Source: Elusimicrobia bacterium GWA2_61_42
Lineage (GTDB): Bacteria > Elusimicrobiota > Elusimicrobia > Elusimicrobiales > UBA9959
Assembly (NCBI GenBank): GCA_001799615.1
Contig: MGTU01000008.1
Coordinates: forward strand, 124,001 to 188,000
Reading direction: 5' to 3'
DNA length: 64,000 bases
The position numbers were made by a program, and so were the translations under genes. The notes beneath the pieces are model-generated. The model was not told the origin of the DNA and did no database searches. It saw nothing but the letters and a program-made list of their open reading frames with translations. Positions within the stretch are counted from its first letter, which is position 1. Each line of letters starts with the position of its first letter. Of this stretch, positions 15,301 to 30,061 are shown one piece after another.

Positions 15301-16121
15301 CTGGACACATGCAGCCGGGCCAGCGGCGGGTTGCTGTACTCGCCTATGCCCACGTTGCCGGTGTTCTTATTGAAGAGGTGCGGCCCGTTCACGTCCCACT
15401 GTTCGCTGGCGGCCGCCTTATACTGGATAGAGCCGTCGGGGAAGCGGAAACCGCAGGTAGCGTCGAGGGAACAGGCGGGGAAGGTGCCCTTGCTTTCCAC
15501 CATGCCCGCCACCGAGAGCTGCTGGCCCGGGGAGATATTACCCACGGAAATGCCGCCCAGCACGAAAAGATTGGTGGAAATAGTAATAGCGCCGTTGCTG
15601 GTAAAAGGGAGGGCCGCTATAGTATCGGCCGCGAACACCGGCGTGCCGGCGGAAGCGGTGGAAGCGTAAAGAGAGTTGAAAGAGAAAGGGGAAGCCTGCA
15701 GGCGGATGCGCGGGGTCATGGCCTCATAGGTGCCGCTGCAGTTGCCGTCCGGGTCTACCTGGATCTCCAGCCACAGGTTCTGGTTATTTATGAAAGTCGC
15801 GGGCAGGTCGCCGCTGATATTCGGCCCCGAGCCTATTTCCACGTCGTAACGGCCTTTATTTACCGCCACGTTGCAGCGCGGGTCGGTGAACTGCACGGCA
15901 CCGCCGGTGGCCGCGTTATAAATGACAAAATTTATGTCCTGGGGAGTTTCCACCGGCAGGCTGTTGCCCTTGCTGAGCAGGAAGCCCTGGTAGTTTATGC
16001 TCTGCGGGATGCCCGCAAAAGCCGGCCGCGGGGTTACAGCCGCGATCCCGGCAAGAAGCAGAAGCAAGGCCGGGAGAAGCCTCACGGGAGAATAGCGCAG
16101 TTCGTTCTCAAAAGCCTTCAT
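12372..16121 (-). CDS. large exported fibre/adhesin-like protein, 1249 aa
   Basis: A signal peptide (about 1-36, ending RPAFA) precedes a conserved-looking N-terminal domain (IPQSINYQGFLLSKGN) and a long low-complexity body. KAGDTMSG/KAGDTMTG recurs at least four times, next to RFYGDGSGLTNV-like units. These resemble phage tail-fibre and collar repeats. Near residues 1055-1150 are YadA-head-like repeats (SVAFGNRNSA, STVTGGFNNA, YSLIGGGHNNVA). Two Cys lie near the C-terminus. No beta-barrel anchor or gliding-type C-terminal domain is present. A strong GGAGGAAC site precedes ATG 16121, 14 bases after the Fn3 gene. Probably a surface fibre; partner and ligand unknown. Confidence 0.8.
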   Translation of the reverse strand: MKAFENELRYSPVRLLPALLLLLAGIAAVTPRPAFAGIPQSINYQGFLLSKGNSLPVETPQDINFVIYNAATGGAVQFTDPRCNVAVNKGRYDVEIGSGPNISGDLPATFINNQNLWLEIQVDPDGNCSGTYEAMTPRIRLQASPFSFNSLYASTASAGTPVFAADTIAALPFTSNGAITISTNLFVLGGISVGNISPGQQLSVAGMVESKGTFPACSLDATCGFRFPDGSIQYKAAASEQWDVNGPHLFNKNTGNVGIGEYSNPPLARLHVSSAIGDTGSLLILSTGTAAVFRVNGLGQVYGNRYYGDGSTLTGIVAKAGDTMTGALTLPADGINTPRIKLLDGVTISSSPALASLFPGGILVSSHVYVIGYASATRFYGDGSGLTNVVTLDGSKVLKAGDTMSGQLTLANSTLTVTGNAFSVGLSTLSVFGGNTALGGAAYQARLTVGGGIIASSSITAQGGLYSNSVSASGSGSFNSVYIGSATFWGTNGSADPATSFSIDTATGIRVNAGAVVAPYFIGNGSKLTSVTGTDATKLLKAGDTMSGNLTITPSSVTIISMGAHNYALTVATAADAGTYSFAVSTAGNVGIQVSDPSSPLTVYKQIFITNNNADVSSNIHMKSQNGPGYIYWSDGAMGTMGAMGYLPNLTRDFAFRAMGSRPDGAGGGTEVFRIKTDMDETNGASWKFGIGIIPTEKFHVGANMLVSAGATPILYVSTVTQRVGVGSTTPDRKFYVNGGIVAVSSITAQGGFFGDGAGITNISAGGLPVQVDISSIAARSDSTYGAVVFTSNTYVNAMLAVGQVFTPAADLHVRGNARLDNKDGTSPVALRFHINQGAANSYISWGDDTNGVKGALGMLANNRDLIYKTNTEDIAGGDEAFRITGNDRAGLWRFGIGTTAATLPQEKFHVMSNMLVGPSLASPIMYISTTTNSVGISTGTPKERMHVASSFLVGPDHASAVLYVSTGPAWIGMGTANPRARLEVSNGTILADGTGGSLPMTGAGTRFMWVPSLAAIRAGAVNGTEWDTVGSYSVAFGNRNSATASESTVTGGFNNAVAGLYSLIGGGHNNVAQGMDGVVAAGENNYLTGRASVIPGGAYNVALSSYGFAGGYNSFLDTDAKGTFAWGYDDTHPAGYTFNTFKISTAYAFLIDPANVHQYKVGIRTEAPQAALDVNGDAQFGSGVDKSTFTAQGFWVPRWIDTATLRTVTPSGVGQVVGNSTLMSLCVSTAATRGGWAAMGAGGVNPCQ

Positions 16122-16135
16122 AGTTCCTCCGGGAA

Positions 16136-17758
16136 TCAGCGTATCACCGCTACCGTACCGTTATAAACCGTGCCCTGGGCCTCTATCTGGTAGATATAGA
16201 CGCCGCCGGGAACTACCTGCCCGCCCGACTTGGCGTCCCAGCTGAGCGCGTTGCCTACCGGGCCCGCCGCCATCACGGCCACCAGCGCGCCGCGCATGTC
16301 GAAGATCTTGCCCTTCACCTGCTTGTCCTGCGGGTTGTCGAAAATAAACACCATGGTATCATTTTTACCGTCGCCGTTTGGGGTTATCAGGCGGTTGCTC
16401 AGCCCGGCCCGGTCCGCCGCGAAGCCGCCGCTGCGCTCGGTGGTCCTGAGCTGGTAGCGGCCCAGCAGGGTGGTGTCCAGCTGTACGCTGCGCTCCGCGT
16501 CGTTGACGCGGCCGTACATCTGCATCCAGCGCGACCCGTTGTAAAAGTACATGCTCAGGGCCTTGGCGTCGGTGGCCGCGGAAGGAACGATGACCCCGCC
16601 CGCCTTGCGGTAAAAGAGCTTGAGCACGCCGTTCTTGGTAAGTTTGAAGGAATCGTCGGGCTGCAGGCCGCCGCGGTAGGCCCTGAAGCTCACCGACTTT
16701 ACCACGCGCCCGGCCAGGTCCTCGGGGTTGGTGGTGATCTCCACGCTGTAGGCGTCCATGGGGTCGTTTGACTCCGAGAAGAAAGACCCCGTGGCGTCCG
16801 CGGGGACTTCCAGGATGCTCTGGTTGTCCGGCGCCAGGAAGTACAGGCTGCCGGAAACGCTGTCGCGGGCGTAAGAAGGGATGGAGGTGCCGGCCTGGTT
16901 GATGGCGCGCGCGTGGTAGTAGTATTCGTCGCCCTCGCTGATATTGTCGGTCCAGGTGAAAGTGTCGGAGGAAACCTCGGCCAGGAACTGCCACTCGGCG
17001 TCGGCCGGGGCCGTGGCGCGGAACACCTGGTAGTTCTTCACTTCGTAGGGAGAGGTAGGCGAGAAGCGGTCGTTGAACCCCACGCGGTTCTGGTAGCCGG
17101 CGGGGGGGATCCAGGTCATCTTTACCGCCGGGCCGTCTATCATCACTATCTTGAAATTCATAGGGGCCAGCGGCACCAGGGCGAAGGACGCGGCGGCGTT
17201 GGACAGCTCCGAGCGCAGCTTATGGGTGTTGAGAGATTCCAGGGCGAAATAGTAGGTAGTGCCCGGATTGAACCCTTCTATGATCCTGGTCTCGGAGGCC
17301 CCGGCCGCCAGCGGCACCCAGTCCTGCGCGTAGGAATTCGCCGCGTAAAAAGCTTCGTCGGTCCTTATGAAGGCCGCGGTGCTGTGGCGCAGCAGGTAAT
17401 AATCCACCGCGCCGCTGGGCCGGCTGACGTCCACGGAAGGCGCGGTAAAAGTAACCTTTATGCTGTGGCTGGACACGATGACTACCTGCATGTCGCCTAT
17501 GGGCGCGGGCTGGGGGAAAAAGGCCAGTTTGCCGGCGCGCTGCGAGAAGCTGTCGGAGTTCTGCGTCGAGACGGCGACTTCCTGCAGGCTGCCGTTCATA
17601 ACGAAATTGGAGGAGATCATGGCGGCCGAGCCGAAGCCGTAGATGCCGCTGGTATCGGCGAAGCTGGCGGAATTCAGTTTGGCGGCGCAAAGCGGAGCCG
17701 CGGGCAGCCAGGCCGCCGCGAGGAGGAACAGAACCCGCGCTTTACCTTTAATAGTCAC
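16136..17758 (-). CDS. exported Fn3-domain protein with gliding-type C-terminal domain
   Basis: The 540-aa protein has a signal peptide (about 1-25) and two fibronectin type III-like domains (about 90-190 and 195-300; PGTTYYFALESLNTHKLRS and GDEYYYHARAINQAGTS). A beta-rich region follows, then a C-terminal domain (about 455-540) containing NRLITPNGDGKNDTMVF and GGVYIYQIEAQGTVYNGTV. That domain is of the CHU_C/FlgD-like class found on type IX-secreted or gliding proteins. The start is GTG 17758 with no Shine-Dalgarno; a TATAAT box ends six bases upstream, suggesting a leaderless message. It leads a two-gene operon with the fibre protein. Confidence 0.82.
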   Translation of the reverse strand: MTIKGKARVLFLLAAAWLPAAPLCAAKLNSASFADTSGIYGFGSAAMISSNFVMNGSLQEVAVSTQNSDSFSQRAGKLAFFPQPAPIGDMQVVIVSSHSIKVTFTAPSVDVSRPSGAVDYYLLRHSTAAFIRTDEAFYAANSYAQDWVPLAAGASETRIIEGFNPGTTYYFALESLNTHKLRSELSNAAASFALVPLAPMNFKIVMIDGPAVKMTWIPPAGYQNRVGFNDRFSPTSPYEVKNYQVFRATAPADAEWQFLAEVSSDTFTWTDNISEGDEYYYHARAINQAGTSIPSYARDSVSGSLYFLAPDNQSILEVPADATGSFFSESNDPMDAYSVEITTNPEDLAGRVVKSVSFRAYRGGLQPDDSFKLTKNGVLKLFYRKAGGVIVPSAATDAKALSMYFYNGSRWMQMYGRVNDAERSVQLDTTLLGRYQLRTTERSGGFAADRAGLSNRLITPNGDGKNDTMVFIFDNPQDKQVKGKIFDMRGALVAVMAAGPVGNALSWDAKSGGQVVPGGVYIYQIEAQGTVYNGTVAVIR

Positions 17759-17877
17759 GCTTTAATTATATCCGGCCCGTGCGACTAAAATATTACAAAG
17801 AGATTGCGATATTCCGGCGTTAAATCCACAAATCCGTAATAAAATAGTCACAATTGAAAAGTAGAATTGTCCTGTAT
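17759..17877. promoter_or_regulatory. divergent promoter region with -10 boxes hard against both start codons
   Basis: This AT-rich 119-bp gap separates the Fn3 gene (-) from the small C-terminal-domain gene (+). On the minus strand TATAAT lies at 17765-17770, six bases before GTG 17758. On the plus strand TAGAAT lies at 17862-17867, ten bases before ATG 17878. Neither gene has a Shine-Dalgarno. No convincing -35 is visible. Confidence 0.55.
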
Positions 17878-18252
17878 ATGAAACTTCGTACCGCCATCTC
17901 GCTCACGGCCGCGGCGCTGCTGCTCGCGCCCCTGGCGGCTTTATGTTCCTCGTCGGGGCTGGGCGAATCCAGGGTGCTGAACAGGCTGGTCACGCCCAAC
18001 GGCGATAACCGCAACGACACCTTCGTCTTCCGGTGTTATAACCCGCGCGACGCCGCGGTGGAGGCCAAGATCTACGACCTGGCGGGCAGGGAAATAGCCA
18101 TTATGCGGCTCAAGAGCATAGGAACCACCGACTATTTCTACAATTACGAATGGAACCCCAACTCCGGCGGGCACCATCCCGGGGGCGTGTATATTTACCA
18201 GGTGCGGGTGGAAACCAAGGTCTATAAGGGAACAGTAACAATAATAAGATGA
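17878..18252 (+). CDS. exported stand-alone gliding-type C-terminal domain protein
   Basis: This 124-aa protein is a signal peptide (about 1-24) plus a single domain. RLVTPNGDNRNDTFVF and GGVYIYQVRVETKVYKGTV align closely with the last 85 residues of the divergent Fn3 gene (RLITPNGDGKNDTMVF, GGVYIYQIEAQGTVYNGTV), so the two are paralogous domains facing each other across one promoter region. TTG 17854 would extend the frame but ATG 17878 starts a proper signal peptide. Its stop overlaps the PorV-like gene by four bases. In Bacteroidota such domains are type IX sorting signals on larger cargo; a domain with nothing attached suggests a structural subunit or decoy. Confidence 0.8.
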   Translation: MKLRTAISLTAAALLLAPLAALCSSSGLGESRVLNRLVTPNGDNRNDTFVFRCYNPRDAAVEAKIYDLAGREIAIMRLKSIGTTDYFYNYEWNPNSGGHHPGGVYIYQVRVETKVYKGTVTIIR

Positions 18253-20231
18253 CTACGAACGACCTGATGAGAACCGGTAAAGCGTGCGCCGCCGCGGCCT
18301 TGATGCTGCTGGCGCAGCTGCCGCCTGTGTTCGCCGCTTTCGAGGACCTGGGCTTCGGCGCCAGGGTCCCCGGCATGGGCGACGCTTTCACAGGCGTGGC
18401 GGACGACATCTCTTCCATTTATTACAACCCGGCAGGCCTGTCCAACCTGGAGCGTTCCAAGGTCATGGCCTCGCACTCCATGTTTTACAGCGGCCTCAGC
18501 GACGGCTCCAACCTGGGCCTCAGCGCCGTGGCGCTGGCCGTCCCGCTGTCCAGCGGCCGCGGCGGCACCCTGGGCGCGGTCTGGCAGCAGTTCTCGCTTT
18601 CCGGCGTGTATTCCGAGAAGACCGGCCAGGTCTCCTGGGGCTACCGCTTCGACAAGCGCTCAAGATACGAGAAGTTTTCGGTAGGCGCCTCTCTCAAATA
18701 CCTGTCGCACGGCTTTACCCGGCTGGACGAGACCTACAACGCCGTTGAGAACGGCGTTTTCCAGAACGGCAACACCGACCCGGTGCTGGCGGGGGCCAAC
18801 ACGCGCTCCGCGCTGGACGCCGACGTGGGCGCCCTCTACCGGCTGACCAAGCGCTGGACCCTGGGCCTCGCCCTGCTCAACGCCATGCAGGCGGACGTGG
18901 CTTTCAGCAGTTCCGACAAGGACAAGATCCCCATGAAAACCCGCCTGGGCGCCTCTTACAAGAGCCTCTGGCTGCTGCTGGCCTCCGACCTCCGCCTGCA
19001 GAAAGGCCCCGACGGCAAGAACGACAAGCAGTTCATTTTCGCCGCCGAGAAGGTGTTCCCCAGCCTCGACCGCGGCGACGTGTCGGTGCGCGCCTCGCTG
19101 GGCGTGGGCGACCGCGAATTCCGCCAGGCGACGGCCGGGCTTTCTTACAAGATACAGAAGATACAGCTGGACTACGGGTTCTCCCTGCCGATAGGCACCG
19201 TAAAGGAAACGGCCGGCAACCACAAGCTGGCGCTTACCTACCATTTCGGCTCCGCCACCCAGACGGAACTGGCCGAATCGGAACTGCTGGACCAGTACAA
19301 GCGCCTGCGCGAAGCCAAGGACTACAAGAGCCCCCGCGAGACCGCCAGCCTCAACGACCCGCGCCTGGCCGACGTGAAGGAACAGGTGCTGAAAGAGAAC
19401 TATTTCTCCGCCAACAAGCTGCTGCTGGATAAAGCCAACGAATTGCTGCCGGACGCCTCCGTGGTCAGCCTGACCAAGCGCCTCTCCACCGTGGCCGCCT
19501 TCTACCCTTCGCTGGCCGTGGAAGGGCGGCCGAAGCGGCGCTGGGAGCAGCTGCTCAGCGGCGGCACCAGGGACTTCATAAACGGCGCCGACCTGCGCGC
19601 GATGAAGCAGCTCGCCTACGCGCAGAGCCTTAACCAGCAGGATTCCTCGCTCTCCAACTTCCTGGACCGCATCGGCGAAATGACGCGCCTGACCCCGGAC
19701 CGCGTCCCCGCCGACTTCAGCCGCGGCTGGACCGAGTTCAAGATCACCGAGTCGGACGAGCTTTACACCAAGAAGCGCTACTCGGAAGCCCTGCGCAAGC
19801 TGGACGAGATGCTCGAGCTGGAGCCCAACGATCTGCTGGCCCTCAAGAAGAGCGGCTCCTGCAATTACATGCTGGGCAGCTACGCCAGGGCCGCGCACGA
19901 CTGGACAAAGGCCTCGACCCTGGAGTCGGACCCGCTGGAAAAAGCCAAGCTGGCGAAAATGATAGACGAAGCCCGCCTGAAGCAGGGCAAGGCCTCGGCC
20001 TGGGAACCCCCCGCGGGTACGGCCAGGGAAGCGGCGCCCGAGGAGAAGGTGGAGACCAAAGGGGAGAAGGACGCCCGGGAGATAGAGAGGCTTTACCAGG
20101 CCGGCGCCGATTACTACGCGAAAGGCGAGTACGGCAAAGCCGCGGACGCTTTCCGCAAGATCATGGGGATCGACCCGATGAACACGCAGGCCAAGAAGGC
20201 GCTGGAAAGGATAATCAGGCTGTCGAGATAA
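18249..20231 (+). CDS. PorV/PorQ-like outer-membrane barrel fused to TPR repeats
   Basis: The 660-aa protein has a signal peptide (about 1-30) and a UPF0164/PorV-PorQ type beta-barrel domain (about 31-345). The family opening is FGARVPGMGDAFTGVADDI and SIYYNPAGLSNL, with many alternating aromatic strands. The C-terminal third holds TPR-like helices: LYTKKRYSEALRKLDEMLEL near residue 510 and YYAKGEYGKAADAFRKI near residue 622. PorV is the outer-membrane shuttle of type IX secretion, but related barrels have other uses. It is translationally coupled to the preceding sorting-type domain gene, and the histidine kinase starts one base after its stop. Confidence 0.82.
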   Translation: MTTNDLMRTGKACAAAALMLLAQLPPVFAAFEDLGFGARVPGMGDAFTGVADDISSIYYNPAGLSNLERSKVMASHSMFYSGLSDGSNLGLSAVALAVPLSSGRGGTLGAVWQQFSLSGVYSEKTGQVSWGYRFDKRSRYEKFSVGASLKYLSHGFTRLDETYNAVENGVFQNGNTDPVLAGANTRSALDADVGALYRLTKRWTLGLALLNAMQADVAFSSSDKDKIPMKTRLGASYKSLWLLLASDLRLQKGPDGKNDKQFIFAAEKVFPSLDRGDVSVRASLGVGDREFRQATAGLSYKIQKIQLDYGFSLPIGTVKETAGNHKLALTYHFGSATQTELAESELLDQYKRLREAKDYKSPRETASLNDPRLADVKEQVLKENYFSANKLLLDKANELLPDASVVSLTKRLSTVAAFYPSLAVEGRPKRRWEQLLSGGTRDFINGADLRAMKQLAYAQSLNQQDSSLSNFLDRIGEMTRLTPDRVPADFSRGWTEFKITESDELYTKKRYSEALRKLDEMLELEPNDLLALKKSGSCNYMLGSYARAAHDWTKASTLESDPLEKAKLAKMIDEARLKQGKASAWEPPAGTAREAAPEEKVETKGEKDAREIERLYQAGADYYAKGEYGKAADAFRKIMGIDPMNTQAKKALERIIRLSR

Positions 20232-20232
20232 C

Positions 20233-21543
20233 ATGAACCTTTTCTATAAGTTCAGCGCGGCCTTGACGGCCGCGGCGCTGGCCGCGGCCTTGCTGCTGTC
20301 CGCTATCTTTTTCAGTTTCCAGCGCCGGACGGTGGCGGCCGCCCAGCAGGAGCGGCTCGACGCCATGGCTTCTTCCACGGCCAGCATACTGAAGGAGGCC
20401 GACCTGGCGGGGGACCCGCTGATGGCGGTGGACTACCTCTCGGGGCTCTGCTCTTCCCGGCCCGAACTGACGTCCTGCGAGCTGGATATAGGCCGGGGAA
20501 TGCGTGCGGTAAAGCACCGCGGCAAGGCCGCGGCGCCTCCCGGCAGAACGGAGCGGCGGGAAGCGAAGGGCGGCAAATTCTCGGCGCGCCTTAATTTTTC
20601 GGAAGCCAGGCTGGAGGGCGAGCGGCGTTCCGCCCTGGCCGGGGTCTACCGCGACCTGGCGGCCGCCTTCCTGGGCGCCGCCGCGGCGGCGGGCCTGCTC
20701 GGCCTGGGGCTGGCCTGGAGCCTGACCGGGCGCCTCAAACGACTGGCCGCCGAAGCGGCCGCCATCGGCGAAGGCCGCTTCGGGATAAAGACGGACGCGC
20801 GCGGCACGGACGAGGTGGCGGAACTGGCCAGGGCCTTCAACGCCATGTCCGACCGCCTGCTGGAACTGGAGACGATGAAAAAGAATTTCACGGCCTCCGT
20901 AACGCACGAGCTGCGCTCGCCGCTCGGCGTCATAGAGACCTACGCCGCCCTGCTCCTCAAGGAAGCGGACCGTTTCCACCCCGAGGACCTGGTTGTGTTC
21001 AGGCGCATAAAAGAGAACGCGGGGCGCCTGGCCAACTTCGTCACGGCCATGCTGGACCTCGCGAAGATAGAACGCGGAAAAATGGAACTGAGCCTCTCCT
21101 CCGAGGATCCGCTGGCCCTGACCGCGGACTCCGTAGATTTCCTGAAACCCAAAGCGGCGGAAAAGCGCGTCACCCTGGAGGCGCAGCCCGGCGCCGGCGC
21201 GGGGCGCGTAATGCTGGACCGGGAACTTATAACGCACGCCCTTACGAACCTTATCGCCAACGCGGTAAAATTCACGCCCGAAGGCGGCCGCGTGACGGTA
21301 CGCGCCTCCCTGGCGGGGGGGAAGTTCCGGGCGGAGGTCCAGGACAACGGCCCCGGCATAAAAGCGGGCGAGGCCGAAAAACTTTTTGCGCCGTATTCGC
21401 AGGGGTCCGCGGCCGCGGGGCACGGAGGGACCGGCCTGGGCCTGGCCCTGGCCAGGTCCATAGTGGAACTGCATAAGGGCACCATAGGCTGCGCCCCGGC
21501 CCCCGGCGGCGGCGCCCTCTTCTGGCTCGAAATCCCGCAATAA
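20233..21543 (+). CDS. membrane sensor histidine kinase (HAMP-HisKA-HATPase)
   Basis: The 436-aa protein has a transmembrane helix at about 8-30, a short periplasmic loop of about 105 residues and a second helix near 140-162. A HAMP linker follows, then HisKA with the phospho-acceptor His in SVTHELRSPLGVIE near residue 222 and a HATPase domain with NLIANAVKFTPEGG, DNGPGI and GGTGLGLALARSI. It is a complete kinase. It follows the PorV-TPR gene by one base. The only full response regulators nearby lie on the opposite strand at 25031-26462, so its partner is not certain. Confidence 0.92.
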   Translation: MNLFYKFSAALTAAALAAALLLSAIFFSFQRRTVAAAQQERLDAMASSTASILKEADLAGDPLMAVDYLSGLCSSRPELTSCELDIGRGMRAVKHRGKAAAPPGRTERREAKGGKFSARLNFSEARLEGERRSALAGVYRDLAAAFLGAAAAAGLLGLGLAWSLTGRLKRLAAEAAAIGEGRFGIKTDARGTDEVAELARAFNAMSDRLLELETMKKNFTASVTHELRSPLGVIETYAALLLKEADRFHPEDLVVFRRIKENAGRLANFVTAMLDLAKIERGKMELSLSSEDPLALTADSVDFLKPKAAEKRVTLEAQPGAGAGRVMLDRELITHALTNLIANAVKFTPEGGRVTVRASLAGGKFRAEVQDNGPGIKAGEAEKLFAPYSQGSAAAGHGGTGLGLALARSIVELHKGTIGCAPAPGGGALFWLEIPQ

Positions 21544-21580: not shown

Positions 21581-23014
21581 ATGAAAACGATCTTGCGCCT
21601 TTTCGCCTTTATATTTATTTTCGCCGCCGTTGCCGCGCGCGCCCAGGAGACCCCGGCGCCTTCGCCCACCGCGCAGGCCGCGGAAATTTCCGCCCGCATG
21701 CAGGAAGACGTCTCCCGGCTGCTCGAGCAGCTGGTAGGCCGCGGCCGCGCCCGCTCTTTCGTCACGGTGGAGGGGGAGATCGTCCTCAAAAGCAAGACCG
21801 AATCCGGCACGCCCGCCGAAGACACCGTCACCCTGCCGGGCTACGCCTCCGTAAATATCCTGGAGAAGACCGGCGAGTACCTCAAGCAGCAGCGCGAGGA
21901 AAGCCAGCGCACCAGCGAATTCCGCATCAAGAAACTCAGCGTCTCCCTGGTCTTCGACCGGACCGTACCGGAAGCCAGGGTGAACGCCATAAAGCTCATG
22001 ATCTCCGACGTGCTGCGCCTGGCCGAAGCGCGCGGCGACAGCATCATCACCGCCAGGGCGGAGATGCAGCCCTGGTGGAAAAGCGCCCTGGAAGCCCCCG
22101 AGATCCGCCCCGTCCTGCTGGCCTCCGCGTTCGGCGCGCTGGCCCTGGCCGCCCTGCTGGCGCTGGGCTATATCCTGATCTCCCGCCTGCTCAGCGGCTT
22201 CGTGGAATACGCCCGGCTCAACGCTCCCGCCTCGCCCGCCGGGCCCGGCGGCGGCTACGGCCCCGGCCCCTCAGGCGAGCTGGAAGGCGGCGAGATGGGC
22301 GATATCATAGACGTGGAATCCCGCGCCGCTTCCGGCGGCGCCCTGCTTGAAGCCGGTTCGGCTTTCGAATTCCTGGAAAAACTGCCGCCCTCCGAAGCCG
22401 CCGACCTGCTGTCCGAAACCCCGGAGGAGGACGCAGCCATAATCATAGCCAACCTGGCGGACCGGAAACCCCACATTTCCTCCAAGATCCTGCTGGCGCT
22501 GCAGCCCGCTAAAAAGCAGGCGGTGAGCGCGCAGATGCTGGGGCTTAAACAGGTGGAACCTGAACGGGTATACGAAATTGAGAGCGACCTGCGCGCGAAG
22601 CTGGAGAAGAGCCTTAAGGGGGCGGAGAAGCTGGGCCGCCTGCTTTCACTGGTGGACGAATCGTCCCGGGCCGAAATAATGGACACCCTTTCCCGCTCCG
22701 ACCCCAAGGGCTCCGAAGAACTGCGCCGCAAGATGGTGACTTTCGACGATATCTGCCGGCTGGACGAAAAGAACCTGCGCCCGCTGGTGGTCTCGCTGCC
22801 CTACTCCGACTGGGCGGCCGCGCTGGCCGGGGCGGGAGATACCGCCGCGGGCAATGTTACGCGCCTGCTGCCCGAGGACATCCGCCTGATCGTCAAAGAC
22901 CTCATGGCGAACCGCCCCGAGGAAGAAAAGATCATAAGCGCCAGGGCGAAAATCATCTCGGCCGCGCTGGACCTCAACGCCAAGGGCCGCATCGTGGTGA
23001 AGGAGGGCGCGTGA
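21581..23014 (+). CDS. FliF-FliG fusion: periplasmic ring domain, one TM helix, cytoplasmic FliG
   Basis: The 477-aa protein has a signal peptide (about 1-22). Residues 35-165 match the last FliF ring-building domain: LLEQLVGRGRARSFVTVEG, then LPGYASVNILEK, KKLSVSLVFDRTVPEARV and EARGDSIITARAEM. A helix at about 176-200 matches FliF's second membrane helix. Residues 255-470 match FliG middle and C-terminal domains: LEKLPPSEAADLLSETPEE (ETPE where FliG usually has EHPQ), LALQPAKKQAVSAQML and KMVTFDDICRLDEKNLRPLV. By eye, several torque-helix charges of E. coli FliG are not kept. No rod, hook or filament genes are nearby. ATG 21581 was preferred to GTG 21575; TAGAAT lies 12 bases upstream with no Shine-Dalgarno. 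Confidence 0.85.
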   Translation: MKTILRLFAFIFIFAAVAARAQETPAPSPTAQAAEISARMQEDVSRLLEQLVGRGRARSFVTVEGEIVLKSKTESGTPAEDTVTLPGYASVNILEKTGEYLKQQREESQRTSEFRIKKLSVSLVFDRTVPEARVNAIKLMISDVLRLAEARGDSIITARAEMQPWWKSALEAPEIRPVLLASAFGALALAALLALGYILISRLLSGFVEYARLNAPASPAGPGGGYGPGPSGELEGGEMGDIIDVESRAASGGALLEAGSAFEFLEKLPPSEAADLLSETPEEDAAIIIANLADRKPHISSKILLALQPAKKQAVSAQMLGLKQVEPERVYEIESDLRAKLEKSLKGAEKLGRLLSLVDESSRAEIMDTLSRSDPKGSEELRRKMVTFDDICRLDEKNLRPLVVSLPYSDWAAALAGAGDTAAGNVTRLLPEDIRLIVKDLMANRPEEEKIISARAKIISAALDLNAKGRIVVKEGA

Positions 23015-25017
23015 GCGGCGCCTCCGACACCTTTCACACCGAGCTGGACTACCTCTGGCAGGCTGTGAAAACGGCCCAGGACGCGGAAGTCCGCTCCGAA
23101 GCGGAACGCTCCAAAGCGAGATCCGGGCTGGAGCACGCCGCTTCAAGAGTGAAGCACCTGGAAACGGAACTGGCGGGCAGCGCGGCGCGGGAGCGCCAGC
23201 TGCGCGAGGAAGCCGGGAAACTGAAAGCGGCTATAGAGGAAACCTCCCGGGCCCTTGCCCTGGCGGCCGCCCAGGCCGCGGAAGTGAGCGCCGCGGCGGA
23301 AACGCGCGCCGGGCTGGAAGCGAAGCTGCATCAAAAAGACGCGGAAACCTCCATGCTGGGCGCCGAAATAGCCCGTCTGCGCTCCGAAACCTCCACCCTG
23401 AAAGAAGCCCTGAAAGGCCGCGACGGCAACATAGGGGCGTTACAAGAAAAGATCTCCGGCCTGATGGCACTCCCCGAACTTTCGCGCGCCCTCGCGGAGG
23501 ATTCCAGACTTTCCGGCAAAGGACCGTCCGTCTACGAACACCTGCTGGAGCGCCTTGAAAAAGAAAAGCTCGAGGCCGCCGAAGCCGCGGCGGCCCTGGC
23601 CAGGGCTGAAGCCGGGACCTCGGAGTCCCGGGCGGCGCTGGCGGCTGCCGAAGAAGAAACCGCGGGCCTGCGCCTTGCTTTAGCCCGCGGCGGGCGCGAA
23701 CTGGAAGAGCTGCGGGCGGCCGTACGGGCGGCCTCCGACAGGACCGCGATATCGGAAGGGGAAAGGAGCGCGCTGGAAGAGCGCGCCGCCGCGCTGAAAG
23801 CGGCGCTGGGCGCGCGGGAGACGGCCCTGGAAACTTTTGCCGCCGAAGCCGCCGCCCTGCGGCGCGAGCTGGACGCGGCCAGAGCCGAATCCGACCGGGT
23901 CCGCGAGGGCGCCTCCGCCCAGGCCCTGAAGACCGAGGAACAGCGCGGGAATTTCACCGGCGCGGTAGCCCAGGTCTTCGATCTGCAGAAACGCGCGGCG
24001 GCCCTCAAGGCGGACCTCGCCGCCGCCCGGGAGAAAAACGCCGCCCTGGCCTCCGCCCTGGCCGAAAGGGACGCCGACCTGGAGAAGATCAACGGCCTGC
24101 TGCGCGAGGCCAAGAACGGGCTGGCCCAGGAAAAGGAAACGGCGAAAAGGGCCGTCGCCAGGGTAAAAGGCCTGGAAGCCGAAATAGAAGCTTTGAAAGT
24201 CAAAATAAACGCGGCCGGCGATTACTCGGCCAAGCTGCTGCGCGCCGTGCAGGAGCGGGACCTGCTGATGGGAGCCATGAAGGGCGACATGAGAAAGGTG
24301 GAAGCCCTGGAAATGGAGAACGAGGACCTCAGGCGCAAGAACGTGAAATTTACCGGCCTGGTCAGGCGGGAACAGGCCGATTTCAGCGCCAGGGTGATAA
24401 CCGCCATGGAGCGGGCCGCCAAAGACCTTAAAACTTTCAACCTGCGGCTGCCGGCCGCGGAGCGCAAGGGACTGGAACCGGCGATGAAGAACCTGCTGGC
24501 CTCGGTAAACCTCCTCAAGGGCTGGCAGGAATACATGGATCCGGAAACGCCGGAATTGCAGGACACCGACCTGGCCGGTTTCGTCTCGGGAGAAGCGGGC
24601 AAATGGGAGCGCGCCTTCAAGCAGCGCAAGATCTCTATTTCCGCGGCCATCGCGGCGCCCCGCCTGCGCGCGCGCCTCGACTCCGAGAGGATGAAGATGC
24701 TGTTCTACCAGCTGGTGAAGAACGCCTACGAACGCCTGCCTTCCGGGGCCAGCCTGCGCATAACGCTGAAAGCCTCAGAGGACGGCCGCCAGGCCGTACT
24801 GGCCTTCGAAGATACCGGCCCCGGCTTCACCCAGGAAACTCTCGGCAGGCTTTTCGCCCCTTTCAATACCACGGACAAAGGCAAGGCCGGCATAGGCCTG
24901 GCCGTGGCCCGGCGCATAGCGGAAAAACACGGGGGAACCCTGGAAGCGTCCAACAGGAAGGAGCGCGGGGCGCTGGTGGAAGTTAAACTGCCGCTGGGCG
25001 CGACGGCGCCCCAATAA
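23011..25017 (+). CDS. long coiled-coil protein with C-terminal histidine-kinase ATPase domain
   Basis: The 668-aa protein starts at GTG 23011, overlapping the FliF-FliG stop (GTGA). Residues about 15-460 are almost continuous Ala/Glu/Lys/Arg-rich coiled coil. The C-terminal 150 residues form a GHKL ATPase: YQLVKNAYERLPSG (N box), EDTGPGF (G1) and GIGLAVARRIAEKHGG (G2). The helical segment before the ATPase domain has no histidine where the phospho-acceptor should be, so autophosphorylation is doubtful. There is no membrane helix. Coupling to the FliG gene suggests a scaffold or regulator of that assembly. This is inferred from position. Confidence 0.8.
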   Translation: MSGASDTFHTELDYLWQAVKTAQDAEVRSEAERSKARSGLEHAASRVKHLETELAGSAARERQLREEAGKLKAAIEETSRALALAAAQAAEVSAAAETRAGLEAKLHQKDAETSMLGAEIARLRSETSTLKEALKGRDGNIGALQEKISGLMALPELSRALAEDSRLSGKGPSVYEHLLERLEKEKLEAAEAAAALARAEAGTSESRAALAAAEEETAGLRLALARGGRELEELRAAVRAASDRTAISEGERSALEERAAALKAALGARETALETFAAEAAALRRELDAARAESDRVREGASAQALKTEEQRGNFTGAVAQVFDLQKRAAALKADLAAAREKNAALASALAERDADLEKINGLLREAKNGLAQEKETAKRAVARVKGLEAEIEALKVKINAAGDYSAKLLRAVQERDLLMGAMKGDMRKVEALEMENEDLRRKNVKFTGLVRREQADFSARVITAMERAAKDLKTFNLRLPAAERKGLEPAMKNLLASVNLLKGWQEYMDPETPELQDTDLAGFVSGEAGKWERAFKQRKISISAAIAAPRLRARLDSERMKMLFYQLVKNAYERLPSGASLRITLKASEDGRQAVLAFEDTGPGFTQETLGRLFAPFNTTDKGKAGIGLAVARRIAEKHGGTLEASNRKERGALVEVKLPLGATAPQ

Positions 25018-25030
25018 CCGTGAAGCGGTC

Positions 25031-25717
25031 CTACAATTTGAAGATGTAGCCCAACCCGAAAACAGTCTTGATCTTGGAACCGAAAGGGCGCCCGAGTTTA
25101 TAACGGAGCGCCTCTATGCGCTTGTCCACGGAGCGCAGCCCGGCTTCCATGCCCTGCCGCCAGACCTGCTCCAGCAGCACGCTGCGCGAAACCACCCGCC
25201 CCTGGTTCCTCAGGAAATAAACAAGCAGGTCGAATTCCAGCGCGGTAAGTTTGAGCGCGGCCCTGCCGATCTGCGCCGTGCGGGCCTCCGGGGAGACCAG
25301 GAGGGCTTTGAACCTGTACTCCGCGGGCTTTTCGGCGGGCGCGGGGCCGGCGGCGCAGGACCGCGCGAGGAGATTGACGAGCCGGGCCCGGAAAAGCCGG
25401 GGCTCCGGGGGAAAGGCGAAGTATTCGTCCGCGCCGTTGTCGAAACAGACGGCGGCCGCGGCCGGAGAATACGGACCGGCGCCGGTCAGCACCAGGGACA
25501 AACGGCGGGTTTTTTGGTCGCCGCGCAGTACGGCCGCCAGGTCCCTGCCGCTCATGTCCGGCAGAAAGGCGTCTATGACGGCCAGGCCGCCGCCCGGGGC
25601 GGCGCGGAGGAACGCGCCTGCCGAGGGATAAAATTTAAGGCGGAAGCCTTTAAGGGCGGCCTTTAAGAAAGCCGAAACCCCGGCGTCGGAAGTGACGCAA
25701 TGCGCGGTGAGGGTCAT
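25031..25717 (-). CDS. OmpR-type DNA-binding regulator with degenerate receiver
   Basis: This 228-aa protein has a receiver-like domain (about 1-118) and a winged-helix output domain (about 130-228; LKLTALEFDLLVYFLRNQG, SVDKRIEALRYKLG, VFGLGYIF). The receiver keeps an Asp in LAVIDAFLPDMSG, but the N-terminal acidic pair is absent and the conserved Lys of the KPF motif is replaced (FAFPPEP). It may work without phosphorylation. It overlaps the preceding receiver gene by four bases. Only 13 bases separate its stop from the convergent coiled-coil gene. Confidence 0.85.
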   Translation of the reverse strand: MTLTAHCVTSDAGVSAFLKAALKGFRLKFYPSAGAFLRAAPGGGLAVIDAFLPDMSGRDLAAVLRGDQKTRRLSLVLTGAGPYSPAAAAVCFDNGADEYFAFPPEPRLFRARLVNLLARSCAAGPAPAEKPAEYRFKALLVSPEARTAQIGRAALKLTALEFDLLVYFLRNQGRVVSRSVLLEQVWRQGMEAGLRSVDKRIEALRYKLGRPFGSKIKTVFGLGYIFKL

Positions 25718-26091
25718 GCGGGGAGAACAGCCGCCTTTATGCGCCGTGACAGTTCGTCGGGGTCGAAAGGCTTGAGGACATAGCCGGCCGCGCCCAGTTT
25801 AAGGCCCTCGGCTACCATATCCAGTTCCGAACGCACGGTGAAGAATATAATGGGGACGGCGGCCAGGGCCGGGACCTTGCGGATGCGGCGCGCGGCCTCG
25901 AAGCCGCTTATGTCCGGCAGCCCCACGTCCAGCAGTATCATGTCCGGCTTCTGGGCCGAGGCCAGCGCCACGCCCTCCAACGCGGTGGCGGCGGTAAACA
26001 CCGCGCATCCCGCCCTGGCGGCGATGCGCGCGGCTATCTGGAGGTAATCGGGTTCGTCGTCTACGACGAGAACTTTGGGGCGGCGGGTCAT
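25714..26091 (-). CDS. single-domain CheY-like response regulator
   Basis: A 125-aa stand-alone receiver with all signature residues: VVDDEPD near residue 9, phospho-acceptor Asp in MILLDVGLPDISG near residue 55, Thr in FFTVRSE and Lys in VLKPFDPDEL near residue 108. It has no output domain, so it acts by binding a partner such as a motor or kinase. Four-base ATGA overlaps couple it to both neighbours. Confidence 0.9.
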   Translation of the reverse strand: MTRRPKVLVVDDEPDYLQIAARIAARAGCAVFTAATALEGVALASAQKPDMILLDVGLPDISGFEAARRIRKVPALAAVPIIFFTVRSELDMVAEGLKLGAAGYVLKPFDPDELSRRIKAAVLPA

Positions 26092-26462
26092 TTAACCGGG
26101 ACTAGGGCTTCCACTTTTTTCTGCAGGTAGGACATCTCCACGGTCTTGCTCATGAATTCGCGGCAGTTGGACTCCTGCCGGAACAGTTCGTTCATGTTCT
26201 TGTCGAAGAAGGTCCCGGTGATCACCAGGACGGGGATCTCGCGGGTGTCGTCCTCGGTCTGGAGATTGCGGAGCACCTCTATGCCGCCTATGTCGGGCAT
26301 CATCACGTCGAGCAGTATGATATTCGGTTTTATCGCCTTGGCTTTGGCCAGGCCTTCGCGGCCGTTCTCTGCGATCTGCACGGTAAACCCCAGGTCCGTG
26401 AAATAATCGGAAACCATCGTGCGGAACTCCACATTGTCGTCAACGATAAGCATCAGGCTCAT
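26088..26462 (-). CDS. single-domain CheY-like response regulator
   Basis: A 124-aa receiver. LIVDDNVEFR supplies the acidic pocket, IILLDVMMPDIGG the phospho-acceptor Asp, VLVITGTFF the switch Thr, and REFMSKTVEM the conserved Lys in an unusual context instead of KPF. The insertion NMNELFRQESNC before that Lys is longer than usual. It lies 56 bases after the hybrid of Cache and PAS kinase and overlaps the next receiver gene by four bases. Confidence 0.88.
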   Translation of the reverse strand: MSLMLIVDDNVEFRTMVSDYFTDLGFTVQIAENGREGLAKAKAIKPNIILLDVMMPDIGGIEVLRNLQTEDDTREIPVLVITGTFFDKNMNELFRQESNCREFMSKTVEMSYLQKKVEALVPVK

Positions 26463-26518: not shown

Positions 26519-28639
26519 TCAAGACGGGCTGGGAACCGGCGGGGGGGGCGCCGACATGCTCTTGGAAACGGTGAAAATGAACTTGCTGCCCTTGCCCACT
26601 TCGGACTCCACCCAGATGCGCCCCTTGTGGAGTTCTACCGTCATTTTACACATGGCCAGGCCCAGGCCGAAGCCCTGGCTCTTATGCTCTTCCATCTGGG
26701 AATACTTCTCGAAGATCTCTTTGCGCTTGGCTTCGGGGATCCCGGGACCGGTGTCCTCAACGGCGAAGAAGACTTCCTCGGGGGTCTCCCAGGCGGAAAG
26801 GGTAATGCTGCCGCCGGAGGGGGTGAACTTGAGGGAATTACCCATCAGGTTGGTGATAACGCGCTCCAGCAGTATCGGGTCCGCGGTCAGCTGTATCTTG
26901 GGCGAAGGAGCTTTCACGGACAGCTTTATGTTCTTGGGGCCGGCCACGGGCTCGTGGTTGTCGCGAATGCGCGCGATGATGGACTCCGCGTCGACGGTGT
27001 CCATCTGCAGAGACATCGTGCCGCGCTCGAGCTTGGTGGTATTGAGGATGTCGTCTATCATGCCGCGCAGGCGGCGCGACGAATAAAGCATGCTGGACAG
27101 GTACTTATCCGTGGCGGGGGACGGGCCGATCTTCTTCATCAGCAGCTCCGTGTAGCCCTGCAGGGTGGAAAGCGGGGCGCGCATGTCGTGCGTGATCATG
27201 TGGAAGAAATCTTCCTTGGCCTTCTCTATCTCTTTCTCGCTGGTGATGTCGCGCATGATGATGACGCGGCCGGGGCGCTTGAGCGTGGCCAGCAGGAACT
27301 GGTTGGAGATTATGCGGTAGCTCTTGAGCACCGTGGAAGTTTCGTTGGAGATGGGGGCGTCCACCTCGATGCGCAGGTACTTTTCCTTCAGGGCCAGCAT
27401 TTCCGTGAGCGCGTTGAAGAACGCCTCGTTCTTGACGGAACGGGGCACCGACACGTCGGGCGAGATCTTGGGGATGCCCAGCAGCTTCAGCGCCGTGGTG
27501 TTGGAATAGATCAGCGAGCCGCGGTCGTCCACCAGCAGCACGCCGTCGGAGATGGTGTCGATCAGCGCCTGGGCCTTGCCCTTTTCCTCCACTATCTGGT
27601 TCAGCTGGAACGCGCGGTAGGCCTGCAGCTCCAGCATCAGGCGGTTAAGAATGCCCACCAGCACCCTTATCTCGGGCCAGCCTTCCTGGGGAATGACGCT
27701 GTCGAGGTGCTGGGTCTTGAGGAACTGCTTTACGCCGTTCACCATGTTATTGATGGGGCGGATGATGCGGTTGGAAATAAGGAAGACCACCACCATGGTC
27801 ACGCCGAAGATAGCCACGGCGAGGATCCCGAACACCATGATGGACTTGCGCTGCTTGCCGTACAGCTCGTCCTCGGACTGCACGGAGACCGCAGCCCAGT
27901 CCAGCTTGTCTATGGCGGCGTAAGCCCCGGAGAAGTCTTCGCCCGAAAATTTAAACTTGGCCAGGGTCCCGGTGCGCCCGGCGCTGCGGAACACCTTCTT
28001 CAGTTCGTCGGGGGCATAGTCGACCCCCTTCATGTCCTGGCAGGGAAGGGGGCGGCCCTTGCCGTCGGCGATAAACACCCGGCCGGTGCGGCCTGTCTTC
28101 TGGGAGTTGATCTTGCCCAGGAGCTTGTCCATGGAGAAATGGAAGACCACCACGCGGCCGTCCACCAGCGGGTAGACGAGGGGGAAGAAGGCCTGGCCCT
28201 TGGCGCACAACACCTCGCCGGAAGCGACGATGCCGGTCTCCCTGGCCTCCGCTATCAGCGCGTCCTGGAACAGCGCGAGGGATTTCTTTTCCTTCACCTT
28301 CTCGCTCTGGAGGAAGAACTGTTCCTTCCCGTCGCGCGTGACCAGGCTCAGCGACATGATGTCGGAATTTATGCGGGCGGCCTGCTGGATAACGCGGGCC
28401 TCGTCCAGCTTTTTGGCCTGCAAAGGGTTCTCTATCTCGTAAAGGAAGGCCAGGTTGCGGTTGGTATTGAGGAACCACTCGTCGACATTGACGGCCGAAA
28501 GACTCGACAGGCCCCTATGCAGTTCGAAATAACTGGTCACGGAGGAATTATACTGGTAGATGTTCCAGCCGACCGACAGCATCAGCGGCAGCACCGCTAT
28601 CGCCAGCAGGATCAGCAAAAACCTCGTGGTCAGTTTCAT
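26519..28639 (-). CDS. membrane histidine kinase: Cache-HAMP-PAS-HisKA-HATPase
   Basis: The 706-aa kinase has a helix at about 7-28, a large extracytoplasmic Cache-like domain (about 30-270), and a second helix near 278-300. HAMP follows, then a PAS domain (about 365-480; LIDTISDGVLLVDDRGSLIY), HisKA with MITHDMRAPLSTLQGYTEL near residue 500 and HATPase with NLMGNSLKFTPSGG, EDTGPGIP and GFGLGLAMCKM. The tail is Pro-rich. It starts four bases after motB, so the same transcript should supply stator and kinase. The ligand sensed is unknown. Confidence 0.93.
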   Translation of the reverse strand: MKLTTRFLLILLAIAVLPLMLSVGWNIYQYNSSVTSYFELHRGLSSLSAVNVDEWFLNTNRNLAFLYEIENPLQAKKLDEARVIQQAARINSDIMSLSLVTRDGKEQFFLQSEKVKEKKSLALFQDALIAEARETGIVASGEVLCAKGQAFFPLVYPLVDGRVVVFHFSMDKLLGKINSQKTGRTGRVFIADGKGRPLPCQDMKGVDYAPDELKKVFRSAGRTGTLAKFKFSGEDFSGAYAAIDKLDWAAVSVQSEDELYGKQRKSIMVFGILAVAIFGVTMVVVFLISNRIIRPINNMVNGVKQFLKTQHLDSVIPQEGWPEIRVLVGILNRLMLELQAYRAFQLNQIVEEKGKAQALIDTISDGVLLVDDRGSLIYSNTTALKLLGIPKISPDVSVPRSVKNEAFFNALTEMLALKEKYLRIEVDAPISNETSTVLKSYRIISNQFLLATLKRPGRVIIMRDITSEKEIEKAKEDFFHMITHDMRAPLSTLQGYTELLMKKIGPSPATDKYLSSMLYSSRRLRGMIDDILNTTKLERGTMSLQMDTVDAESIIARIRDNHEPVAGPKNIKLSVKAPSPKIQLTADPILLERVITNLMGNSLKFTPSGGSITLSAWETPEEVFFAVEDTGPGIPEAKRKEIFEKYSQMEEHKSQGFGLGLAMCKMTVELHKGRIWVESEVGKGSKFIFTVSKSMSAPPPPVPSPS

Positions 28640-28643
28640 GGGT

Positions 28644-29270
28644 CTAGATCTCGTGCCTGATTATGTTTATCTCTATGCGCCGGTTGCCGGCCCGCCCTTC
28701 GGGCGTATCGTTGGATTTTATAGGCTTGAACTCGCCGTACCCGACCGCGGAAAGTTTTTCCGGGGCGATGCCTTCCCCGACGAAGAACTGCAGCACCGAG
28801 AACGCCCTGGCGGAAGACAGCTCCCAGTTGGACCGGAACCTGGTGGACCGGCCCAGCGGGCGGTTATCGGTATGCCCCTCTATCTGTATGGGGTTGGGCA
28901 GGTCCCGGAAGACGGCGGTCAGCCGGTGCAGGTGCTGGTAGGACGAGGGCTTCAGCACGTCGCTGCCGGGGGTGAAAAGGATGGGGTCCGAGAAATTAAT
29001 GCTGATCTTGTTGGCGGAGATCTCCACCTGGGCTATCTGCTGTATGCCGTGCTTGGAGAAAAGCGTGCTGGCTATCTGCGTGTCCTTGCCGAAAGTCTCC
29101 TCCAGGCCCTTCATGGAGAACTGCGAGGTGATGTTCTTGGAGCTGTAGAAAGCGAACAGGATCATGAAGAAGATCATGAGGTAGCTCATCATGTCGCCGT
29201 AGGTGATGGCCCACAGCGCGCCGCGGTTGAGCTCGTTCTCCAGTTCGTCTTCGCGTTCGTAAAAGCGCAT
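28644..29270 (-). CDS. motB: MotB-like stator protein
   Basis: MotB anchors the ion-driven stator to peptidoglycan. The 208-aa protein has a short cytoplasmic N-terminus and one helix at about 20-42, WAITYGDMMSYLMIFFMIL, holding the ion-carrying Asp (residue 26). The OmpA-like domain at about 95-205 includes IEGHTDNRPL, NWELSSARA and GNRRIEINI. It follows motA by five bases. Length is short for flagellar MotB but the plug-to-OmpA layout is complete. Exb/Tol-type motors are the alternative, but pairing with a true MotA-like partner favours MotB. Confidence 0.9.
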   Translation of the reverse strand: MRFYEREDELENELNRGALWAITYGDMMSYLMIFFMILFAFYSSKNITSQFSMKGLEETFGKDTQIASTLFSKHGIQQIAQVEISANKISINFSDPILFTPGSDVLKPSSYQHLHRLTAVFRDLPNPIQIEGHTDNRPLGRSTRFRSNWELSSARAFSVLQFFVGEGIAPEKLSAVGYGEFKPIKSNDTPEGRAGNRRIEINIIRHEI

Positions 29271-29275
29271 AAAGG

Positions 29276-30061
29276 TCAGGCCTTGGCCGGGCGGGGGCCG
29301 CCGGCGCGGGAGCCGTCCGCGGCCTGGTAGCCGCGCAGGTGGATCTCTATCAGGTGCGGCGTCTTGCCGCTCATGATGTCGATGACCCCTTCCAGGAGCA
29401 TCTGCAGCACCAGGGTCTCCTCCATCGCGCGCAGGCGGATCTTGTTGGCCACGGGCACAAAGAGCAGGTTGGAAAGGCCTATGCCGAAGAAGGCGGAGCT
29501 GATGGCCACGGCCATCGAACGGCCGATCATGGCCGGGTCGGAGATGTTGCTCAGGGTCTGGATGATGCCGAACAGCGTACCGATCAGGCCGAACATGGGG
29601 GAAAGCACGCCCATGGTGCGGTAGAAGTTGGAATCTTCCTGTATGTCCAGGCGGCGGCGGCGGATCTCCTCTTCGAGGATGTCCCGCGTTTCGCGCGATT
29701 CGGCGCTTACCATGGCGACGCTCACGGCGCGCTTGAGGAAACCGCCCGCGAAAGCCGGGTCGGTGTTGGAGAGCGCCATGATGCCGCCCTGCTTCTGGGC
29801 GGTCTCGGCCATTCCCACGATCATCCTGACCGCGGACTCCACGGACGGCGCCCGCGGAGCCATGAAGATATCCGCGAAAGCTTTTACGCCCGTAACGAAG
29901 CGCTTGAAAGAAGTGTTCACGATGGTGGCCGCCAGCGTGCCGCCCAGCACGATGATAATGCCGTGCGGGTCCGACAGCTTGTCGGCTATGCCCGAGGAAA
30001 AGATGCCCCAGCCCACCACGGCCGCGCCCAAAGCGAAACCGAATATCGTCATTATATCCAT
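29276..30061 (-). CDS. motA: MotA-like stator protein
   Basis: MotA forms the pentameric ion channel and torque-generating ring around MotB. The 261-aa protein has four hydrophobic helices. The two family prolines lie in VLSPMFGLIGTLFGIIQTL near residue 155 and LLFVPVANKIRLRAMEE near residue 205. The cytoplasmic loop between helices 2 and 3 is charged (DILEEEIRRRRLDIQEDS), where torque contacts with FliG occur. The order motA-motB-kinase-receivers lies 7 kb from the FliF-FliG fusion and there is no flagellar cluster in the window. Confidence 0.93.
   Translation of the reverse strand: MDIMTIFGFALGAAVVGWGIFSSGIADKLSDPHGIIIVLGGTLAATIVNTSFKRFVTGVKAFADIFMAPRAPSVESAVRMIVGMAETAQKQGGIMALSNTDPAFAGGFLKRAVSVAMVSAESRETRDILEEEIRRRRLDIQEDSNFYRTMGVLSPMFGLIGTLFGIIQTLSNISDPAMIGRSMAVAISSAFFGIGLSNLLFVPVANKIRLRAMEETLVLQMLLEGVIDIMSGKTPHLIEIHLRGYQAADGSRAGGPRPAKA

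Follow-up and report, generated by a model that had tools for sequence, protein, structure and literature searches.

What does a bacterium that appears to build no flagellum do with the ring and the rotor of a flagellar motor, joined in one protein? The question is raised by a gene in the stretch of DNA analysed here, a window of 64,000 nucleotides (contig MGTU01000008.1, positions 124,001 to 188,000, assembly GCA_001799615.1) from Elusimicrobia bacterium GWA2_61_42. Its product, of 477 residues (479 counted from GTG), unites the ring-building domain of FliF, a membrane helix and the middle and C-terminal domains of FliG (Table 1). This composition had been proposed by a sequence-only reading of the gene, and it is now backed by profiles, structure prediction and many relatives, so that we consider it nearly certain that the fusion and its homology to FliF and FliG are real. 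The present analysis adds what that reading did not contain: a MotA/MotB pair (28644-30061), paralogous cassettes, PorV/PorP-like and type IX-like neighbours, and wide conservation.

The reading had asked for profile searches of both halves of the protein. In these, FliG_C and FliG_M score over the Pfam cut-off and YscJ_FliF_C just under it; profiles, an AF2 model and structure alignment together identify the RBM3/collar domain of FliF and the membrane helix that follows it, while the two FliG domains occupy residues 259-473. The Pfam FliF match is absent from one paralog, that of the core cassette at locus L006. Against the FliG equivalog model TIGR00207 (curated cut-off 226.7) the window fusion reaches 59 bits and five relatives 68 to 159, all below the cut-off.

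Table 1. Domains of the fusion and neighbouring genes in the window (window coordinates).
Feature	Position	Strand	Evidence
FN3 protein with type IX-like C-terminal domain	16136..17758	-	CHU_C 1.2e-8 and fn3 2.1e-8, over cut-off; T9SS type B 4.2e-7, under
132-aa protein, mostly type IX-like C-terminal domain	17854..18252	+	CHU_C 1.7e-7, over cut-off
PorV/PorQ - PorP/SprF family outer-membrane protein, TPR tail	18249..20231	+	PorP_SprF 3.2e-10, over cut-off; PorV_fam 1.9e-16 and PorP family 1.9e-8, under
HAMP histidine kinase	20233..21543	+	
FliF(RBM3)-membrane helix-FliG(M+C) fusion, 477 aa	21581..23014	+	Pfam, AF2, structure alignment, dN/dS
FliF RBM3/collar-like periplasmic domain, residues 23-162	21647..22066	+	
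Membrane helix, residues 175-214	22103..22222	+	AF2 helix; hydrophobicity by reading
FliG middle domain, residues 259-345	22355..22615	+	
FliG C-terminal (torque) domain, residues 369-472	22685..22996	+	
Long coiled coil (by reading) and histidine-kinase-type ATPase domain	23011..25017	+	HATPase_c 1.7e-19; same position in most W-type loci
OmpR-type response regulator	25031..25717	-	Trans_reg_C 7.4e-18; receiver by reading
Single-domain response regulator	25714..26091	-	by reading of translation
Single-domain response regulator	26088..26462	-	PF00072 4.8e-20
dCache/PAS histidine kinase, adjoins MotB	26519..28639	-	
MotB, plug and OmpA-type domain	28644..29270	-	OmpA 1.1e-19, MotB_plug 1.2e-9; ion-binding Asp by reading (YGDMMSYL)
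MotA, flagellar type	29276..30061	-	PF01618 9.8e-21

Distribution of the fusion and its cassettes

The genome to which the window belongs (2.95 Mb in 34 contigs) contains five FliG_C genes, and all five are fusions (479, 649, 498, 504 and 522 aa) with a start that reads like a signal peptide. The same fusion was also sought in related genomes, as the sequence-only reading had proposed. A profile of five rows matched 48 of 149 genomes drawn from Elusimicrobiota, with one to seven matches per genome when partial ones are counted. At least one fusion is present in 47 of the 149, including a genome (G134) where it is found as two pieces in one frame; the 48th genome, G032, matches in the FliG part only. 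A second survey, a short-pattern scan with one genome per species, retained 80 of 108 confirmed loci. Records titled Elusimicrobi-, Endomicrobi- or plain 'bacterium' account for 71 of the 80, and 69 of these 71 gave a full fusion frame. The other nine loci match in the FliG part only; one of them is from the MAG CSMAG_2843, titled Clostridia, and a full fusion is found in its genome (4.5e-75). This MAG belongs to a second phylum-level group, five of whose six genomes match the profile at 1e-40, four over nearly its whole length; in the fifth, G153, the match covers positions 1-392 and stops where the contig ends. Core-like and D-like cassettes, described below, occur in this second group as well (loci L239, L238 and L235; genomes G154 and G149), and the closed chromosome CP096137.1 also carries a fusion cassette.

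Most of the named genomes are metagenome assemblies, but an assembly or binning error as the origin of the join has a negligible probability and is disposed of by the five separate loci in the window's genome, the 47 of 149 genomes, the closed chromosome and the second phylum-level group. Two unusual frames were seen on the way: a frame of 840 aa (L028, G126:C49) whose kinase-like N-terminal stretch is apparently joined to the fusion, and a 189-aa frame in the window's genome that weakly matches (3.6e-6) the FliF-like half, with the FliG part absent (L199:6709-7278, G000:C9).

No report of a natural FliF-FliG fusion or of its cassette was found in the portions of the literature reached by our searches, and no record of gliding was found for fusion bearers. 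We know of no cultured representative.

Gene maps labelled with profiles built in this analysis separate the loci into four types, assigned by a rule of our own (a tree groups one locus labelled W, L185, with the D type). The core set consists of a PorV-like gene, a fusion with a TPR tail and a proline-rich coiled coil, joined in many loci by FlbD, MotA, MotB and a lipoprotein and in some by a large secreted protein upstream. In the W set, to which the window belongs, a type IX-tail protein, the PorV/PorP-TPR protein, a kinase, the fusion and the coiled-coil HATPase protein are followed on the opposite strand by response regulators, a kinase, MotB and MotA. The C2 set comprises PorV-TPR, a kinase, MotA, the fusion, a coiled coil and MotB, and the D set the fusion, MotA and two MotB-like genes, often with a PorV-like gene nearby.

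Within 10 kb, a PorV-like gene was found in 47, MotA in 35 and MotB in 35 of 54 fusion loci of a first set, and in 64, 41 and 39, respectively, of the 69 from the pattern scan; the two sets share genomes, so their counts are not to be summed. PorV, MotA and MotB are all absent from 11 stretches (130 kb, a non-random sample) that had not been chosen for a fusion. Many of the loci that have no nearby MotA are contig ends or 8-kb flanks. The core loci of several genomes, many of them titled Endomicrobia, are devoid of a local MotAB; in nine of ten such genomes checked, another fusion locus has MotAB, and the tenth case is a 3.3-kb contig. Genome G043 (L073) has a single fusion match, of the core type, and MotAB is absent from the roughly 9 kb around it.

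Two further genes of the window are recorded here. A Clostripain-family (C11) peptidase (35366-36682, + strand) has paralogs near other cassettes (L007, L008), and a 1249-aa repeat protein (12372-16121, - strand) has a signal-peptide-like start by reading and a Chlorovi_GP_rpt match.

The stator pair and the apparent lack of a flagellum

In the window, 5.6 kb with kinases and response regulators separate the MotA/MotB pair from the fusion. For this MotA, NCBIfam ranks a flagellar motor protein model first (6.9e-49, below that model's cut-off); TolQ (4e-5) and exbB (0.0074) follow at a great distance. Seven genes of the MotA/ExbB family occur in the genome; the five long ones are near the five fusions and the two short ones (frames of 211 and 213 aa) are elsewhere, and each of the five fusions has a MotA, a MotB and a PorV-like gene nearby. 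The residues on which a stator depends are retained across the family: the ion-binding Asp of MotB (D32 equivalent) in 71 of 73 aligned sequences (71 distinct), and the equivalents of MotA P173 and P222 each in 73 of 75 (72 distinct), the other two being gaps. Among W-type MotA, both prolines are present in 10 of 10. When compared with five same-genus orthologs, dN/dS is 0.12-0.22 for the window fusion, 0.14-0.23 for MotA and 0.07-0.13 for MotB, so that all three are under purifying selection. Because of the conserved residues, the pairing and the selection, the fusion and MotA/MotB very probably constitute an ion-driven rotor-stator pair.

The suggestion that the contacts with a stator may differ is supported, as the interface residues of both rotor and stator vary with the cassette type. 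With positions numbered by mapping on E. coli FliG and MotA, the core type has E at FliG 288 in 76 of 76 sequences (65 distinct) and K or R at MotA 90 in 48 of 48, and a pair of the R90-D288 type would thus be kept; 66 of the 76 have G in place of R281. In the C2 type, FliG 281 is K (6 of 6) and MotA 98 is K or R (5 of 5), while in the W type FliG 281 is D in 10 of 12 and MotA 90 is Q in 9 of 10. Rotor and stator surfaces thus both vary between the types, as would be expected if the rotor-stator pairs were insulated from each other.

The sequence-only reading had also noted that the outer domains of FliF and the rest of the flagellum are missing. This applies to the whole genome, as YscJ_FliF (the outer domains RBM1/RBM2), FliM/FliN and FlhA are absent from it. 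Across the 149 genomes, FliM/FliN (FliMN_C), the export gate FlhA and YscJ_FliF score over the cut-off in a single genome each, in all three cases G032; for YscJ_FliF there is one further, weak match (5.3e-5, in G089). Four flagellate control genomes were positive for all three profiles. G032 (L078, G032:C2) is an Elusimicrobiota genome with flagellar genes, namely FlhA, FliM/N, FliF and a separate FliG. The fusion-bearing bacteria appear to be without a flagellum.

Such losses, and the interface residues of the window type that are unlike those of E. coli, might suggest that the fusion has no motor function and is a remnant, now decaying, of a flagellum since lost. We think this very improbable, as it is opposed by the low dN/dS of the fusion, by the conserved Asp of MotB and prolines of MotA, by the presence of five cassettes in one genome and by a similar gene order in two phylum-level groups.

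Type IX-like neighbours and the probable load of the proposed motor

If the fusion is part of a working motor, its neighbours may tell what it serves. Besides three response regulators, the window cassette encodes two kinases and a coiled-coil HATPase protein, which are found again in W-type loci. The assembly could accordingly be seen as a mechanosensor, in which a stator-driven ring senses how heavily a surface adhesin is loaded and signals this to the cassette's kinases and response regulators. However, a kinase is rarely found in core loci (one kinase profile was used), and sensing and driving are not mutually exclusive; as the function proper of the assembly, we consider sensing improbable.

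Other neighbours resemble the type IX secretion system, which several abstracts call confined or specific to Bacteroidetes. PorV_fam scores over its cut-off for a gene of the core cassette (L006:6524-8137), as does PorP_SprF for the window gene at 18249-20231, and the type IX sorting domain TIGR04183 is over the cut-off on a protein beside another cassette (L008:180-4757). Upstream of the core cassette of the window's genome is a frame of 11,824 residues (G000:C21:36767-72241; L205, L204, L198, L006). A giant frame of this kind was looked for in 12 core loci. It is complete in three (11,824, 11,827 and, in G110, 14,428 aa), continues past the end of the fetched DNA in eight, after 4,609 to 10,805 residues, and is missing from one, G028, whose longest frame does not exceed 1,460 aa. 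Elusimicrobiota are described as rich in huge proteins (PMC11573180), which fits these frames. The tail of the 11,824-residue frame matches FlgD_ig (2e-5) and TIGR04183 (1.4e-4), all under the cut-off. Among loci for which at least 5 kb of upstream DNA is available, 11 of 49 and 24 of 51 show a strict ending pattern there.

A SprA homolog is encoded elsewhere in the window's genome (L197:8372-13810, - strand; TIGR04189 1.1e-33, 115.7 bits against a cut-off of 200). Like this SprA match, those of the giant's tail and of the window's PorV model to type IX families stay below curated cut-offs. A SprA profile made for the phylum matches 131 of the 149 genomes, a few as fragments or broken genes; Pfam SprA_N alone finds 29, and the window's genome is not among them. 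SprA occurs in all 48 genomes positive for the fusion profile (G032 included) and in 83 of the 101 others (Fisher p 0.0008), but the 18 genomes that lack it all belong to one family (f10) that is without fusions; the association is therefore not independent of kinship, and kinship rather than function may explain it. GldL was over the cut-off in none of the 149 genomes (one weak match) and GldM in none, an absence that weighs little because the control genomes were negative for both.

One use of the motor would be to power secretion instead of movement, by supplying the energy to free cargo from the SprA-like translocon, with a cargo and a carrier of its own for each cassette. The PorV/PorP-like carriers and type IX-tailed proteins in or beside the cassettes are compatible with this, as is the SprA found in every profile-positive genome, and in Flavobacterium johnsoniae lacking GldL, substrates are reported to be trapped on SprA (PMC10994853). 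On the other hand, SprA is present without a fusion in 83 genomes, where it does not need the motor and export must proceed without one. We regard secretion as the strongest of the alternatives, yet still as unlikely.

We favour, as the probable reading, that the fusion and MotA/MotB form a minimal flagellum-derived, ion-driven rotary motor that is coupled to type IX-type surface proteins and probably moves adhesins for gliding. Exported by way of the signal peptide, which was recognised by reading, the RBM3 domain would lie in the periplasm and assemble into a ring there, as FliF does. One helix of the fusion would span the inner membrane, leaving the FliG middle and C-terminal domains in the cytoplasm as the track pushed by the MotA pentamer; a one-piece ring with a rotor face, as had been suggested, fits the domains of the fusion. 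MotA and MotB, usually from the same cassette, would be the ion-driven stator that sets the ring in rotation, with the OmpA-type domain of MotB as its anchor in peptidoglycan. As neither FliM/FliN nor an export gate was found, the ring would turn something other than a flagellum, and the PorV/PorP companions, the type IX-like tails, among them those of frames exceeding 11,000 residues next to some core cassettes, and SprA make type IX-type surface proteins its most likely load. Such a coupling across to the outer membrane, to which the gene context points, is rather more probable than not in our estimate. That the motor would move adhesins for gliding, the job of GldL/GldM in Bacteroidota, instead of serving secretion or sensing, is a more tentative step, to which we give slightly less than an even chance. 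A genome has several cassettes, the surface residues of rotor and stator are type-specific and the window type has two-component regulators, which together suggest that different surface proteins are served by motors under separate control.

Relation to known motors

With the flagellar motor the system shares the RBM3/collar domain, the FliG middle and C-terminal domains and a MotA/MotB of the flagellar type, all homologous over whole domains; the Asp of MotB and the prolines of MotA are kept, and FlbD stands beside MotA in many core cassettes. It differs in that ring and rotor are one protein, devoid of RBM1, RBM2 and the first membrane helix of FliF, in that the Elusimicrobiota genomes searched (G032 apart) have no FliM/FliN or FlhA, and in that up to five fusions were read in one genome. 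We know of no stator for SpoIIIAG of endospore formers, which is another case of an RBM3/collar-like domain outside the flagellum. The matches to it are weak (E 0.019, and E 0.02 for 5wc3), and the FliG part is not matched.

The same two proteins have been joined by hand in Vibrio (PDB 8z4d), where purification of the engineered FliF-FliG fusion yielded a ring and the structure of its S-ring was determined (PMC11481574). Those constructs were made from flagellar proteins, whereas the fusion described here is natural, shortened and outside a flagellum.

The resemblance to type IX gliding in Bacteroidota (SprA, PorV, SprB/SprF, GldLM) consists of the SprA-like translocon, a PorV/PorP-like partner beside type IX-like tails and an ion-driven motor nearby. 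In Flavobacterium, the 669-kDa adhesin SprB is reported to bind the PorP-like SprF, with which it is co-expressed (PMC9143113), and to be moved by the GldLM proton motor (PMC8986121). The gene layout seen here would copy the SprB/SprF/GldLM logic with a different engine, since the motor is FliF-FliG with MotAB and GldL/GldM gave no match over the cut-off in the 149 genomes, the controls being negative too. A stator-like ion channel is likewise described as being used for gliding by the AglRQS motor of Myxococcus (PMC13104615), a likeness by description to what is proposed here; FliG and FliF appear nowhere in the text of that 2026 review of gliding (PMC13104615).

It is conceivable, although we put it at somewhat under an even chance, that in at least two phylum-level groups a self-contained flagellum-derived rotary engine, a FliF-FliG ring with MotAB, has replaced GldLM for moving type IX-type adhesins, and that one cell holds several rotor-stator pairs, insulated from each other and each serving its own surface protein. 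The fusion offers a natural one-protein ring and rotor for structural and biophysical work, and its relatives offer natural variation in the rotor-stator interface. If the interpretation is true, there is a non-flagellar machine built on the FliG rotor, which bears on the roles of rotor proteins in species without filaments, and flagellar motors would be linked to type IX gliding: these bacteria would glide on a flagellar motor without a flagellum.
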